Assembly: GCA_025917655.1 (NCBI GenBank)
Contig: CP084615.1
Location: forward strand, 1,860,001-1,924,000
Origin: Chlorella sorokiniana
Lineage: Eukaryota > Chlorophyta > Trebouxiophyceae > Chlorellales > Chlorellaceae
Reading direction: 5' to 3'
DNA: 64,000 nt
Below are positions 1,450-60,666 of the stretch, piece after piece; position 1 is the first letter of the stretch, and the number at the start of each line of letters is the position of its first letter. The notes beneath the pieces were generated by a model, which saw nothing but the letters and a program-made list of their open reading frames with translations, did no database searches and was not told the DNA's origin. The position numbers and the translations under genes were made by a program.

Positions 1450-4268
1450 ATGGCTGGCGGCCGGAAAGCACGTCGTGATGGCTCGGGCGGCGCCCTTCAG
1501 GGCTGCCCCGCGGGGCCGCCGCCCTCCCTGCTGTGCCTCCCAGCCGAGCTGCTGCTGGGCATCGCGCGGCTGCTGCCCCAGTCGGAGCGCATCGCGTTCA
1601 CCTCGCTGTCCCGCCAGCTGTACCAGCTCAGCCTGGGTGGCGGCGCCCTGTGGGCTGACCTGCACGTTGACCTGGGGTGGCTGGTGCCCGGGTTTGCGCA
1701 CCCGGGCATCTCCCAACACCTGCAGCACTCCCTCAGGTGCGGGCACAGGCCCTCGCGGCATCCACATCTCGTGATGCTTGGCATGCCTGGCGGCGACGAA
1801 CCGCAGCCTCTGCCGCGAGTGGCGGGTGATGCCTGGCCTGCCCTCTGGACGCACCCTGTTGCCGGACCCCTCTGCCTCCTTACGATGTGTCCCCGCTGCC
1901 TGGCGCCGCCCTCGCCGCCCCTCCCTGTAGGATGTGGGTGCAGCGTCGGCGGCACGGCGTTGTCTCGCTGCGCCTCGACTTTCTAGACCACCACAACTTG
2001 GAGAGCAACCTGTGCCTGCTGCCGCTGGTGGCTGCGCTGGCGGGGGAGCTGTCGGGTGCTGGGCTGCGCCGCCTGACCTACAGCTTCACGTGCGACACGC
2101 CGTGGCTGGACGCGCTGCTGCCTCTGGGCCCCTGCTCGCTGGAGGAGCTGGCCATTCTGGAGTGCCACCTGGACCACGTGCCGCTGCCGCTGCCCTCCCT
2201 GGCGCCCTCCCTCACCTCGCTGGCGCTCTCGCTCTGCGAAGGCTTCGCCTCCCATGCGGGAAGCCAGCCAGAGGGCCTGGCGCAGGCGGTGGCCGCCCTG
2301 ACGGGCCTGCAAAGCCTGGCGCTGAACCGTGTGCTGCGGGAGGAAGGTGGGTGGCGGCGGCTGGGCACGTCGGGGGCGGGTTGGCCCAAGCGGCCAGCGG
2401 GCTTTACTGCAGGTTAGCACAGCTTTGCACAGCCATCACGTTGAGCGCTTGTTAGCCTGCTGGGCGTCGGGGCATCCATCCAACGCGCCAGCGGGCCCGG
2501 CCGCCGCCTTTTGTTCTGCTGCCGCTGCTGGCCCCCACTGATGACCTCTTTGCTGGCGCCCCCACCCCCACCCCCACCCTTGTGGTGCAGTTCCACCCAG
2601 CTTCAGCGTCTTGACACGCCTGACGTCGCTGGACCTGGCCGGCAGCTGGGTACCCTCTGTGGAGGACGAGTTGCTGCCGCCCTGCCTGTCCACCCTCATG
2701 CGCCTCGCCCGCCTCGACCTCTCCGACTGCTCCATGCTGTTCCTGCCGGGTGTGGTGCAGGTGAGCCGGGCTGGCCCACTTTGGCTGGTCACACGCTTGG
2801 GAGAGGTGCAGGCGCCTGCCGCATACCCCCCTACCCCCCCCGAGCGCACGCATGGCAGCTGCGCCCGGTGCCCAGCACTCCGGCCGTCCTGCTCCCCGCC
2901 CCGTCGCAGCACTTTACGGGTCTTCGCACGCTGCTGACCTCAGGCAACAGGTTGGGCTACAACGGCGAAGACATGCTGGAGGAGGAGGCGAGCCCGCAGG
3001 GTGTGCCGCTGGCGCTGAGCGCGCTGAGCCAGCTGGAGGAGCTGCGGCTGGACTGCAACCGTGACCTGGACCAGCTGCCCCAGGCGAGCTGCCACTCTGC
3101 GCTCTATTGTCCTGGCTGTCGCCTGCCTGTGTTAGTGATGTGGCCGATGAACAGCGCTTTTGTGACCCAGGTCCCCCTGACAACCCCACTCAGGCTGCGG
3201 AGCTGCGTGCGAAATTATGCACCGCCTGCACGCTGCAGGCTTTCACGGGTCTGACGCGGCTGACGCGACTGATGGTGGGGGCACACCGCTGCCGCCGGGA
3301 CCCTACCTTGGCAATCTGCAGGTGCTGACCTGGCGCCGAGCTAGCCCCAGTCCCGCCCCTGCCACGCCTGCAGCATGCCCCGAAGCAGCCCAGCTCATGC
3401 AACGGAGCTGCTCGCAGTTGCCCCCAGGCCCCGGTTTCACTCCCAACCGCAGGAGCTGAGCCTCGCATTTGCCCTGCAAACAGTGGAGGTACCCCCGGTG
3501 CACGCCGCGTCGCGCCTGCGCCGCCTCAGCTTTCGCGGGCAGCACGCAGTCAGTCGGGGGTGCGGGGCTGCTGGCAGAGGTGGCGGAGCTGCGCTGCCTC
3601 ACCTACCTCGACATTGGCCACCTGCAGATTGCCAGGTGGGCACCCCTCTCCCCCAGCCCCCCTCTCCCTCCCTCCTCTGCGCTTGTGGCCCCGCGTCTGG
3701 CAAGGCCCTTGCCAGGGTGGCAAGCTACTGCAGAGGGGGCTACGCTACAAGGCCACCAGGTACGGTCGGCCCGCTCGGCGCGCGCCGCCAAGCACCCCAT
3801 CCTGCGGCCCCTTGGGCCCGCTTGCAGGCTGCCTGCGGGCCCGTATGCGCAGGGCCTGCAGGAGCTGGCGGCTGCCCACGCGGCGCGGCACTCCACCGGC
3901 CTCATGAGCTCGCTGCCGGCCCTGCCCGCGCTGCGTCGCCTCGACTGGATGGGCAACAAGCGGGTGGGGGTGGGGCCGCTGCGCCACCTGCTGGACCGAG
4001 CGCCGCGGCTGCAGGTGGAAGGGGGCGGGGGCGGTCCCTGGTTGCGATGCCCGGCCTGTGAACAAACCCCGCCATGTCGACCCTTTCCTTGCCCCCACCC
4101 CTGGCCGTACGAATCAAACCCAATAGCTACTTGCATGTTGTTTGGTGCGCCCTTTGAGGGTTGTAGGTGCTGTACATCCGCCGTGAGGGACTCACTGCCA
4201 CCGGCTTCAGGATGCTGCGGGAGGCGCAGCTGGAGCTGGACCCCAGCATGGGCCAGCTGAGCTTTTAG
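1450..4268 (+). CDS. F-box / leucine-rich-repeat protein
   Basis: Predicted substrate-recognition subunit of an SCF-type ubiquitin ligase. The first exon, from the ATG at 1450, holds an F-box-like segment: LPAELLLGIARLLPQSERIA then LYQLSLGGGALWADL. Later exons carry LRR-like units such as LEELAILECHLDHVPLPLP, LTRLTSLDLAGSW and LSQLEELRLDCNRDLDQLP. Exons by splice sites: 1450-1736, 1931-2346, 2591-2760, 2910-3083, 3239-3321, 3453-3635, 3828-4014 and 4167-4268, ending QLSF-stop. The intron after 3083 has a GC donor (CAG|GCGAGC). The frame changes inside exon 6 near 3545-3575, in a G-rich stretch, probably an indel. The F-box is divergent, so a plain LRR protein cannot be excluded. The target is unknown. 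Confidence 0.75.
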
Positions 4269-56542: not shown

Positions 56543-56990
56543 AAACAAGGCCTTTGGCGCAGTGGACGACCAATCCTGTCCCACGCGTCTTTGAACATGT
56601 AAAAAATGGTGGACGACGGACTGTGGACCGTCAAGGATAGAGGGAAATGCACATTGCTATGAAAAATGAAAGAATGAAGGATACAACGTAGGGAATCTGT
56701 TCAAAACTGCTTGTGTGTGTCGGGAGGGCAGCGCAACTCGACAGGTGAAACCAAGCACTGCACACGATGCGAGCGAAGGACACCTACAATTGCTCAACCT
56801 GATGAACAGGCACAGCGTGGTGCTTCAATGCGACTTCAGGCGGGAAGGGCCCGCCTCTAGTGGAACTGGCAAAGCGGCGGCCGCCTGGCCCCCAAGCGGC
56901 ATGTCGCCTGCCAAGCGCACGGGCGTGTCGGAAGGTAAGGCGCCCGAGGGGCGCGTCCGATTCGCTCCGTCTTTGACGCAGCCTTTCCGC
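56543..56990. other. Convergent 3' region, no gene seen
   Basis: 448 bp between the TPR protein end (+) and the AIG1-like gene end (-). AT-richer, no conserved frame. Confidence 0.45.
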
Positions 56991-58690
56991 TCAGCAGAAA
57001 CCGTTGCTTGGCCCTGCAATGCCAGCGCAACACACGCACGGCGGTGTTGGCACGAGCCTGCAGCCTTGCAAGTGTGCCAAGAACAGGGAGATGGCGCGCG
57101 ACAGTGCACGGGCATGCCAACACCCCCACCTGGTCATCGCCACCACCGCAAGGAAGGCGCCCACGTGCACCGCAAAGAGCCCAAGGTAGGAGGCCCACGC
57201 ATACGGCTTGCGCGCGTCTGTGGGTGGGGACGGGGCGGAGGGAGGGTGGGAGCCGAGACGGCAGCAAGGAGGATGGTTGGGGGCCTAGCCTCGGCAGCAG
57301 CACCAGAGCCGCGTGCGCCGCACCACACGCGTCAGCAAGGTGCCCAGCCGCGGCAGGCGCAGCGCCGACGCGCCTAGGAAGGGGTAGATGAAGCGGCCGG
57401 TGCGCAGGTAGAACAGAGCGGACCAGACCCCAAACAGGCTGGACCACAGCGCCACCCAGCCTGAGCTGTACAGGTCGACTGAAGGGGGGCAGGGGAGCAG
57501 GGGTTGGAGGGCCAGGCTGGCAAAGGGCGGGCAGCCCACGAGGTCGGGCTGAGGGCACCCCGGTCCCATGCGGGGCCCCCACCTGGGATGCGGTTGAGCA
57601 GCAGATCTCCCAGGATCATCACCGCGTTAAAACCGTGTTGCTGCGTCTCAACAGGGGAAGCAAGTGAGCAGGGATCGGCTGCAGGGTGTGAGCCAACGCA
57701 CACAACAACTTCGAACGGGCTGCGGGGAGAGGAGGCGCGAGACGGGTGGGCTGCGTGCGGGCGCAAATTGGGCGGGCCATGCGGCGGCGAGCAGGCTGCA
57801 CAGCAGTCACGTTGTAGCTCTCAAAACTGTAGAATCGCTCCCGCCAGTACCGCGTGTGGGCCGCATCCGGGTTTTGCAACACCATGGGCACCAGCCAAAA
57901 CCAGGTGAGCAGGAAGAGAGCCAGGGACATCTGCACACGCAGCGGCGGAGGTGGGCGGGGGGGGCGGCTTTGTGGGCGGGGTGGGCGGTGACGGCAGCGA
58001 GAGGAACACAGTCGGCAGGGGCCTTTCACGTTGTACGACTCGAAGTTGTGGTGCACCGAGTGCCAGTAGGCGGCCTCGCTGGGGCCCGCCGCCCCGCCCT
58101 CCAGCATGGGCACCAGCACCAGCCAGGTCATGCCATCCACCAGCAGAGCCATCTACGGGGCGGCGCGTGCACGCATCACCCGGCAACCGACCCATCCGCC
58201 ACAGCCACCCAGCTGTGCTCGCTGCCACGCCCCTCGCCATTGCAGCCGCCTCCGTGGCCGCAGCAGCCAGGCATCTGATCCAGCTGCACGGCTGGGCCGC
58301 ACACTCACCGGCGTGGCGATGCAGAATGTGGCCAAGGTGGCCCTGCCCAGCAAGTCCACGCCCCTACCCCAGGTTGCGTTCTTGGCCCTGGCGGGCCGCT
58401 GCCTTGCCGCACGCAGGCATGCCGCGGAGCCAAGCGCAAAGAAGGCTGTGAGCAGCCACCAGTTCCTGCGGCGACAACCTTGATGTGACTGGCGGTGTCT
58501 ACCTTGCGTTGCGTGAACAGCCATTGTTCAGGCCAGCACAGCAGCTGCAGCTGCTGGAACCCACCAGACTGTGAAGAAGATGAAGACGCGGCGCCCGGTC
58601 CGCACCACCTGGCGCAGCCCGATGAACAGAGCCCAGCCCAGCATGGCCAGGCGGTAGGCCAGCAGCAGCTGCGGGGGACCTGTGAGCAGT
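56991..58690 (-). CDS. Multi-pass membrane protein, AIG1/FAR-17a or rolling-stone-like
   Basis: Integral membrane protein with about six helices. Exons on the minus strand: 58565-58678 (LLLAYRLAMLGWALFIGLRQ ... VFIFFTVW), 58309-58465 (NWWLLTAFFALGSAACLRAA ... LATFCIATP), 58030-58152, 57811-57930, 57583-57640 (QHGFNAVMILGDLLLNRIP), 57374-57478 (VDLYSSGWVALWSSLFGVWS ... GRFIYPFL), and from 57217 down (PYAWASYLGLFAVHVGAFLA). FFTVWN, the FESYN-HG.NAVM.L.D..LNRIP block and the final YPFLD motif match the AIG1/rolling-stone superfamily by memory of its pattern. Exons 58030-58152 and 57811-57930 are copies of each other (see findings). The intron after 57374 has a GC donor (CTAG|GCGCGT). The first coding exon is not resolved. 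The stop at 56991 follows if the last exon runs on without another intron. Function unknown; some family members are lipid hydrolases. Confidence 0.65.
57811..57930 (-). repeat. Duplicated exon B (40 codons)
   Basis: Bounded by an AG acceptor (GTGTGCAG|ATG) and a GT donor (TACAAC|GTGACT), phase 0-0. It encodes MSLALFLLTWFWLVPM ... YWRERFYSFESYN. It is aligned with exon A at 58030-58152 by length, borders and about one third identity. Confidence 0.8.
58030..58152 (-). repeat. Duplicated exon A (41 codons)
   Basis: Bounded by an AG acceptor (CCCCGTAG|ATG) and a GT donor (TACAAC|GTGAAA), phase 0-0. It encodes MALLVDGMTWLVLVPM ... YWHSVHHNFESYN. It is separated from exon B by a 99-nt spacer. Confidence 0.8.
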
Positions 58691-59038
58691 CGCCAGACAC
58701 GGCACTTCAGCTTGCGGTCAACCTGTGTTCAGCCACAACACCGGCCCCCTCTGCGGAGATAGAGGAGTCACTGCCGCCTCGGCCATGCACTCACCTATGC
58801 TGCAGTCTGTCAAGTCTTCTGGTCGAAGTGTGGCAAAGGTGCGTTTGCTGCAACATAGGGACAGCCAACAGCGGCTCAGGTGCGCCTGTTGGCGGGCGGT
58901 CAGAGAGCTACAGTGGCAGGAGTGCATGTGAGCTTGATTTGCTGGCCTGTTACGATGGGATGATGAGAAGGGGAGCTCAAAACGCAAGGGTCGTTCAGAG
59001 GTCGATAGCGGAGACACGAGAAGTGCACGTCCAAAGTC

Positions 59039-60666
59039 TCACCCCCAAGTGAAGGCGGACACGCCCCAAATCCACCCAATCAGCTTAATGAGTAGAATGA
59101 CCGTCGGCAGCATGTCGGGGGCAAAGCGGGCCGCGGCAGGCTTCTTCGCCACCTTCTGAGTGCAAAAGGTAAGGTAACGGTATCGACAGTCAAATTTAAG
59201 CATGCGGGGCGTTTTGAGCGACCAAGGGAACCTGTGCTGCGGGGGCTCATGCGTCCCAAGTGCTTGGCTGGCACCCCACGTCATTCGACTTCCCACCTGC
59301 GCCCATCAGCAGCCCCATCAGCAGCCCCGTTGCTTGCATCACATGTACGAGGGCAAACTGCTTGCAGTTCTGACTTGTCAAGCACACGGCTGTACAAATG
59401 AACATGCAGCAAGAGGACACGGCAGAGGCCCACATGCTACTGCCTGGCTGCAGACCTCACTTCCTGCCCAGCTGGGCGTACGCAGCCAACGTGGCCAGTG
59501 TGGGGTCTGGAGGCCCAGCAGACCTTGCCCCGAACGCTGCCCTCCACCCCCGCCTGGCCGCCCGCCGGCTCGCCGCCCGCACCCTCCAAAACCGGGGCGG
59601 AGGGCAGCGGGGAGCCTCCACTTCCGCTGGCTGTGCCCGCCTCTGCCGCCTCCAGCTCTTCCACATACTCCGGCATCTCCACAAGCTCCACGCTGCTGCC
59701 ACTTGAGGCGGCAGGGCTCACACGGCGTGGCGGCGGCACGGCGGCGGACGAGCCTCCGCCCTCGCCCTCGGCGCCGCCGCCAGCCGCCTCCGAGGCTGCC
59801 GCTGCCGGGCCGAGCCCTGCCTGCTCCTCGCTCCACTGCTGCAGGGCGGCCATGATGCCGATGCGCTCCTGCACGGCGCACAGCTGCATGGGCGAGCGGC
59901 ACACGCAGGCTGGTGGAGCAAGGGAGCGAGCGGCGGCGCACCTGCACCTCCTCCAGCTGGCGCAGCAGCCGCCGCCTCCTGCCCGCGTTGCGCCCCATCA
60001 GGGCCGCGACATGCGCCAGCGCCCCGCCCGTCAGCCGCGCCAGCACAAACACGCCACCCAGCAGCCACAGGCCGCGCGCCACGGCGGGGGACTGGGCGGC
60101 CCGCACCGGCAGCGCCCGCACAGTTGTGTGCACCAGGCTGAGGCCAAACGCCACTGCCGCGGCCACGCCCAACTGCGGCAGCAAACACATCGGATTCGAT
60201 CTCCGATGTGCAGGCTTCCCCGTTGTGAGACGATGCGCGAGGGCGGCATCAGGCTGCTCAGCGTCCCACCTCCTTGGCCACCAGCTCTGGAGGCACCACC
60301 TCGGTCTCAAACTCGCGCAGGGCCGCCGCCATGCCGCGAGCCTCCCCCTCCAGCGCCTCCACATGCTGACACAGGGTCACGTATGCTCGCCGCAACGCAT
60401 TCAGGTCGGTGGCGTGCAGCTCGCCCAGCTTGCGCTGCAGGCGCAGCACCTGCACAAGCGGACGGCGGCAGCGGCGGCAGGGCAGGTGGCCGCTATGCTC
60501 CCGCAACCCAACGCTTGGCACAGGGCGCGATCGTTCCAACTGTGGAAATGCCATACAAGGATGGAGCGGAGAAGCACTAGCTCCAGGACGCACCTCTTCT
60601 TGAAGCCGGCCTATCTCCGCCCGCAGTCCTGCCTGATCTGGCTCTTGCTGGCCTTGTGTCGCCATA
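59039..60666 (-). CDS. Unrecognised membrane protein with N-terminal coiled coil
   Basis: I do not recognise the family. It starts MATQGQQEPDQAGLRAEIGR at 60664-60666 and runs into a coiled coil (VLRLQRKLGELHATDLNALR, YVTLCQHVEALEGEARGM). Two helices follow: LGVAAAVAFGLSLVHTTVRA and VARGLWLLGGVFVLARLTGG, then NAGRRRRLLRQLEEVQ. A long acidic Ser/Gly/Pro region contains SSGSSVELVEMPEYVEELEA. A short exon near 59285-59368 gives a third hydrophobic stretch with a Gly pattern (VMQATGLLMGLLMGAG). The last exon gives a fourth helix, DMLPTVILLIKLIGWIWGVS, and stops at 59039. A frame change near 59500 is needed to reach PTLATLAAYAQLGRK. Joins around the last two exons do not keep phase as written. The 5' end of the next minus gene lies only a few hundred bases below. 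Confidence 0.5.

Follow-up and report, generated by a model that had tools for sequence, protein, structure and literature searches.

Are two neighbouring, homologous exons of a Chlorella sorokiniana membrane protein gene used together, or one at a time? The gene lies in the window, by which we mean the whole stretch of 64,000 nucleotides that was analysed (contig C5, positions 1,860,001-1,924,000, of a searched genome of 38.8 Mb in 15 contigs); coordinates given below are positions within this window. Drawn by reading frame, splice dinucleotides and protein sense, the gene model runs along the minus strand from 59203 to 56857 and has 10 exons. Exon E1 (59043-59203), with a candidate start ATG, and exon E2 (58795-58847) are tentative; E3 (58565-58679) contains the motif FFTVWNWW, and E4 (58309-58465), which ends in ...FCIATP, closes with a strong donor, CCG/GTGAGT. 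After an intron of 156 nt (58153-58308) comes exon A (58030-58152), which adjoins E4, then the A-B intron of 99 nt, or 33 codons (57931-58029), exon B (57811-57930), the B-E7 intron of 170 nt (57641-57810) and the adjoining exon E7 (57583-57640), which begins QHGFNAVM. The 3′ part of the gene consists of E8 (57374-57478), which ends at a GC donor (TAG/GCGCGT; 57372-57373, minus strand), E9 (57130-57217) and E10 (56857-57013), with the stop codon TAG. Spliced alignment proposed GC donors with the same flanks, at one common position, in both beta-tubulin genes (L023 and L024), so that a GC-AG intron after E8 is plausible.

The preliminary description had placed A at 58152-58030 (41 codons) and B at 57930-57811 (40 codons) on the minus strand, and these coordinates proved exact, as did its account of the exon borders. 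Both exons follow an AG (TAG for A, CAG for B), start with ATG, end in TAC-AAC before GTGA and are in phase 0-0 between the exons 58465-58309 and 57640-57583. Exon A, of 123 nt, reads MALLVDGMTWLVLVPM...NFESYN and encodes a hydrophobic segment followed by a loop; its homologue B, of 120 nt, reads MSLALFLLTWFWLVPM...SFESYN. Aligned over their whole length, the two agree in 17 of 39 residues, with a BLOSUM62 score of 66 that was reached by none of 20,000 full shuffles and by none of 20,000 shuffles keeping the hydrophobic and loop halves apart. Among the 2,571 open phase-0 AG..GT segments of 36-46 codons on both strands of the window, the score of B against A is 66 and that of the best segment overlapping neither exon is 12; in six synthetic windows, simulated with a second-order Markov model of the minus strand, the top score was 7. 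Chance similarity is thereby rejected, since neither the shuffles nor the other, non-overlapping segments of the window reach 66, and duplication in the assembly is rejected because no more than 17 of 39 residues are identical. In both copies the homology starts at the AG and stops at the GT, and thus the duplicated unit is most likely an exon. The last five residues, FESYN, are identical (5/5, against 12/34 elsewhere; hypergeometric 0.011), which suggests that one and the same exon follows, or once followed, A and B in the transcript. At the third position, 56% of the aligned A/B codons are identical, and by these figures the duplication looks old.

How common are such pairs in this genome? 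A scan of 224 kb, covering both strands of the window and of 16 stretches of 10 kb at chosen positions, returned three clusters of neighbouring similar pairs, namely A/B and two that lie together in one locus, L037; because one common three-residue word was required, besides a minimum complexity, distant pairs can have been missed. At this setting A/B is the only pair of its kind in the window, and the additional 160 kb contribute a single locus, L037. L037 holds, at about 3435-3938 on the minus strand, three tandem Cys-rich units of some 33 residues with CGGC/CFGC ends, each open between AG and GT and all in one phase. Its two clusters look like parts of one Cys-rich repeat gene, perhaps a constitutive repeat, in contrast to A/B. 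The gene carrying A and B itself seems to occur once, having been found once in the genome: a search with the A+B protein gave ten matches within the gene and one elsewhere (L012, E 0.1), which was judged a chance match after its three forward frames had been read. Beyond this genome, the 148 stretches of genome contigs searched yielded one match (L014, in a record titled as a bacterial MAG), which is put down to chance, given the many stops in the matching frame. Four stretches of viral contigs matched a pattern, none of them a relative, and phage records held no relative. The PDB had no chain for the A-form core and NCBIfam no family for the B-form core.

A and B are probably the products of an ancient tandem exon duplication whose copies are used singly, B being the default. 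In the mechanism that we propose, one exon of a gene found once in this genome would have been duplicated long ago, and both copies would encode an interchangeable membrane helix with a loop that ends one residue before a His conserved in the comparison with AIG1/ADTRP. Most mRNAs would then carry one copy: in view of the strong acceptor of B, E4-B-E7 would be the default, with E4-A-E7 as a regulated alternative. Switching would alter the helix and loop next to an active-site-like Thr/His pair, both residues staying in place. We place this reading first among those considered and grant it, in its full form (B the default, A the alternative), almost an even chance.

The preliminary description had presented A and B as a candidate exclusive pair, and this stands as far as the architecture goes. 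Candidates for mutually exclusive splicing are recognised by similar length, the same phase, compatible splice sites and homology (PMC3228551, in the portion available). A and B are neighbouring internal exons of 41 and 40 codons, where a difference of up to 20 aa is allowed (PMC3228551, PMC5740500); both are phase 0-0 and GT-AG on the drawn gene model, and their alignment ratio is 0.29 against a minimum of 15%. What did not come with it is a device enforcing exclusion, as discussed below.

The best of the rival explanations is that both exons are always included, so that the protein exceeds its relatives by one helix and one loop. The exons are symmetric and leave the frame intact when joined; the segment of B is hydrophobic enough to cross the membrane alone (mean 1.79); the strong acceptor of B lies 99 nt from A; and the other tandem pair in the genome, that of L037, has the look of a simple repeat. 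In human, too, many neighbouring exons that resemble each other are not exclusive: by the figures seen in PMC5740500, 6,541 candidates had been selected by comparable criteria, of which 1,399 could be verified and 1,741 were left undecided. For the fly X chromosome, the corresponding part of PMC3228551 gives non-exclusive exons fitting the criteria in only 6 of 1,705 genes. Topology speaks on the other side. Counted as 19-residue windows with a mean of at least 1.0, there are 7 hydrophobic segments with A or B alone, 8 with both and 6 with neither, the first segment resting on a tentative exon; the added segment on double use is what had been claimed at the outset. This extra helix would presumably flip the rest of the protein. 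For a positive-inside topology the charged loops are ambiguous and gave no guide. In addition, the FESYN end of A would face MSLALF instead of QHG.

The spacing of two residues bears on the same alternative. In human ADTRP and AIG1 the Thr and His of the hydrolase site are T47/H131 and T43/H134, respectively, as given in the accessible part of PMC8123165, which corresponds to a spacing of 84 and 91. From the Thr of E3 to the His of E7 the distance is 97 with A, 96 with B, 137 with A+B, 56 with neither and 170 with the intron kept. Only single use of A or B comes near the human values, and double inclusion moves the distance from about 96 to 137. Segment count and Thr-His spacing would therefore speak for a single copy in each protein, to the extent that kinship with AIG1/ADTRP holds. 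We regard constitutive use of both exons as unlikely, though ahead of the other alternatives.

How far does this kinship hold? The protein may resemble plant rolling-stone-like proteins, and the preliminary description had called it AIG1/rolling-stone-like. That identity has weak support: in some of the alignments Thr and His co-align with those of ADTRP and AIG1; against it stand the missing Pfam profile match and a dependence on gap costs. Neither the A-form nor the B-form core had a Pfam match up to E 10, and so none to PF04750 (FAR-17a/AIG1); the rolling stone profile PF21534 did not match the proteins, and the one sub-threshold Pfam match of the A+B protein was PF10079 at E 0.11. Run exon by exon over the own genome, PF04750 found nothing, and PF21534 found nothing either, which shows little because no control genome matched. 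Since the exon-by-exon search also misses the gene itself, it cannot exclude diverged paralogues. A vertebrate study reports AIG-domain genes to be absent from plants (PMC8394805, as far as the portion available goes).

The comparison with the human proteins used sequences of ADTRP and AIG1 that were checked: PF04750 matches AIG1 at 1.9e-78 and ADTRP at 4e-73, and the positions are as printed in the available text of PMC8123165. The hydrolase His is given as His181 (AIG1) and His149 (ADTRP) in the corresponding part of PMC8394805; by our reckoning these would fit H134 and H131 of the sequences used here if longer isoforms were counted. In a four-sequence alignment the Thr of FFTVWNWW (E3) falls on T47/T43 and the QHGFN His (E7) on H131/H134, and A.P, W and TG..YP are also common with ADTRP/AIG1. 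Scored against ADTRP, the form with B alone reaches 54 (0 of 1,000 shuffles as good), that with A alone 23 (50 of 1,000), A+B 24 (59 of 1,000) and that with neither 12 (413 of 1,000). A+B thus aligns worse than B alone, which is a point against constant double inclusion. AIG1, in contrast, scores A+B about as well as the single forms and does not tell them apart (end-free scores of 19 for A, 18 for B, 17 for A+B and 14 for neither); its local scores, 62 with A and 59 with B, also exceed those of shuffles, each being reached by 1 of 1,000. The similarity between ADTRP and the B form was reached by none of 2,000 block shuffles at gap costs of -11/-1, by 2 at -8/-1 and by 610 at -14/-2, and that between AIG1 and A, B or A+B by 40-99 of 2,000 at -11/-1 and -8/-1. 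Pairwise with ADTRP, Thr and His were aligned for A and for B at two of the three gap settings; with AIG1, not one of 12 pairwise cases aligned the His. When three sequences were aligned together, the B form and the intron-kept form brought both residues onto those of ADTRP and AIG1, and the A form alone failed to bring its His onto H131. Among locally shuffled B forms with Thr and His held in place, 9 of 200 also align both residues, and the columns common to all three sequences number 19, no higher than in shuffled copies (mean 18.3).

The algal protein is like AIG1/ADTRP in being multi-pass, in a similar Thr-His spacing and, by the four-sequence alignment, in the placing of Thr and His and in A.P, W and TG..YP. 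It differs in having no PF04750 match, in a similarity that depends on gap cost, in its duplicated exon and in the number of membrane segments, which is six in the AIG1/ADTRP type and 7 here with A or B, one of them on a tentative exon. Taken together, the kinship with AIG1/FAR-17a may be called suggestive, a good lead and not a result.

A second rival takes B as the working exon and A as a rare cassette or decaying copy, so that transcripts would be B-only with at most a little A+B. Here the evidence lies mainly in the splice sites. Our scale of site strength was derived from 24 tubulin and actin introns, kept from 36 proposed; of the 12 dropped, 4 touch masked bases, 3 have GAG/AAG acceptors and 5 have CAG acceptors with donors that seemed implausible. 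Because site plausibility entered this choice, the counts of 24/24 for G at +5 and for CAG are inflated, and adding two dropped GT..CAG introns, both with C at +5, gives 24/26 for G at +5. The scale rests on four genes, which are probably highly expressed ones. These tubulin and actin genes are split by introns, and short N stretches of the supplied genome at their loci (L023, L024 and L026) limit the reference intron sets; the genome also carries 41 matches to the light-harvesting chlorophyll-binding family, which, with the split tubulin and actin genes, mark it as that of a photosynthetic eukaryote.

On this scale the acceptor of A (CCGTAG) scores -3.8 and ranks 51 among the 101 AG sites of the gene, and that of B (TGTGCAG) scores 9.2 and ranks 3. 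The donor of A (AAC/GTGAAA) scores 2.0, rank 32 of 128 GT sites, and the donor of B (AAC/GTGACT) 3.4, rank 18; both lack the G at -1 and at +5 found in each of the remaining seven donors of the gene. No exon of the gene has a lower sum of acceptor and donor scores than A, and three GT sites within A, 12-39 nt from its start, score higher than the donor drawn for it; none inside B outscores that of B. With the strong acceptor of B 99 nt past A, an A-to-B junction looks easier than A-to-E7. That B alone fits ADTRP best also agrees with A being rare or decaying. Nevertheless, A has an open frame with a GC3 of 0.95 (0.82 in B and 0.50-0.92 in the other exons of the gene) and has kept the common motifs despite deep divergence, which is unexpected in a dead copy. 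Moreover, the acceptor of E3 scores -4.0, as low as that of A, so the scale is rough and, trained on tubulin and actin, may undervalue the acceptor of A. On balance we consider a rare or decaying A doubtful.

A single exon of 342 nt comprising A, the 99-nt stretch and B, with the intron removed never or only sometimes, is improbable. The stretch is free of in-frame stops and keeps the frame, so its retention would not halt translation, and the donor of A is weak; the intron-kept form also co-aligns Thr and His with ADTRP/AIG1, albeit over a gap of 92 columns. If retained, the stretch would give a Pro/Arg-rich linker of 33 residues. But its GC content by frame (0.79/0.76/0.67) has no coding-like third position, it ends in a strong acceptor, the homology between the copies stops at AG and GT, and the distance between Thr and His would be 170. 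Least probable of all is that the gene model is wrong around A and B and other donors or acceptors are used, as the lack of G at -1 and +5 in both donors, the better-scoring GT sites within A and an out-of-frame site inside the last (B-E7) intron that is the best acceptor-like one of the gene might suggest, for B and E7 are in different frames and need the 170-nt intron between them, no GT within B beats the drawn donor of B, and the homology ends at the drawn sites. The acceptor-like site in question, 57719 on the minus strand, scores 14.7 (rank 1 of 101) and is out of frame for the donors of A, B and E4; splicing to it would extend the reading frame by 23 codons up to a TGA, and might yield an unproductive form.

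If A and B are used one at a time, as we prefer to think, what could keep them apart? Exclusion by reading frame is rejected: 123 and 120 nt are both multiples of three and the A-to-B junction keeps the frame, so double inclusion is not punished in this way. In human clusters a frame shift on double use occurs in 60% and is not obligatory, according to the part of PMC5740500 at hand. A branch-point device would require the donor to lie less than 50 nt from the branch point. At 99 nt the A-B intron is not unusually short, the E3-E4 intron being also 99 nt and the kept reference introns going down to 83; it contains no YTNAY motif, and of the 24 reference introns only 15 have one at 12-70 nt from their 3′ splice site. 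As for RNA structure, the fold of the region, computed on one sequence, is weaker than all of 20 shuffles (z +2.3), and three intron-intron duplexes that might compete are ordinary, with 103, 52 and 179 of 200 shuffles as good. Given neither a frame shift nor a too-short intron nor detected RNA pairing, exclusive use needs a regulator that is invisible in the sequence. A bound repressor of B would be the most likely device letting A join E7 past the acceptor of B. The most far-reaching version, in which an exclusive switch without frame or RNA-pairing guard swaps the helix and loop by the catalytic His of an AIG1/ADTRP-type lipid hydrolase and so changes its substrate, the catalytic Thr and His being retained, is speculative and, as a whole, unlikely.

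Exclusive exons of the Dscam type are guided by docking/selector RNA pairing. A and B resemble them in being tandem homologous exons and differ in that their introns pair no better than shuffles. They are closer to the class predicted by WebScipio/Kassiopeia, with which they share length, phase, splice type and homology, a class that is prediction only (PMC3228551, PMC3923563). None of the internal candidates that this pipeline proposed for Arabidopsis had already been annotated as exclusive, as far as the available part of PMC3923563 extends. The same scarcity is met in green algae, where few such cases had been supposed and where the available parts of two papers agree: one verified homologous pair in Volvox carteri (PMC4378016) and no exclusive exons in the long-read transcriptome of Haematococcus (PMC6330051). 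In literature searches on exclusive exons (green algae, Chlamydomonas, Chlorella) and on the protein family, no title or abstract start among the matches listed concerned such exons in this family. Exclusive exons thus appear to be rarely documented in green algae and plants.

The system nearest to A/B is the Volvox pair, exons 4 and 5 of cyn23, which are homologous and of 106 nt each, and of which each form was amplified by RT-PCR (PMC4378016, in the portion available). Both cases come from a green alga, and in both two neighbouring homologous exons, of equal length in cyn23 and near-equal length in A/B, affect one stretch of the protein. The differences are instructive. The 106 nt of the cyn23 exons are not a multiple of three, whereas A and B both are; the cyn23 exons are far more alike (13 differing residues are listed) than A and B with their 17/39 identity; and the one-per-transcript forms of cyn23 were amplified, whereas A and B are known here from the genome sequence. 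A/B is therefore put forward as a candidate addition to the known homologous exclusive pairs, one that would be older than that of cyn23. If this is true, a second and older pair, in a gene found once in this genome, would suggest that such switches can persist over long periods in single-celled algae, and A/B would offer a small system for studying how exclusion is enforced without frame or pairing guards. Should the link to AIG1/ADTRP hold as well, A/B would point to switchable lipid hydrolases in algae.
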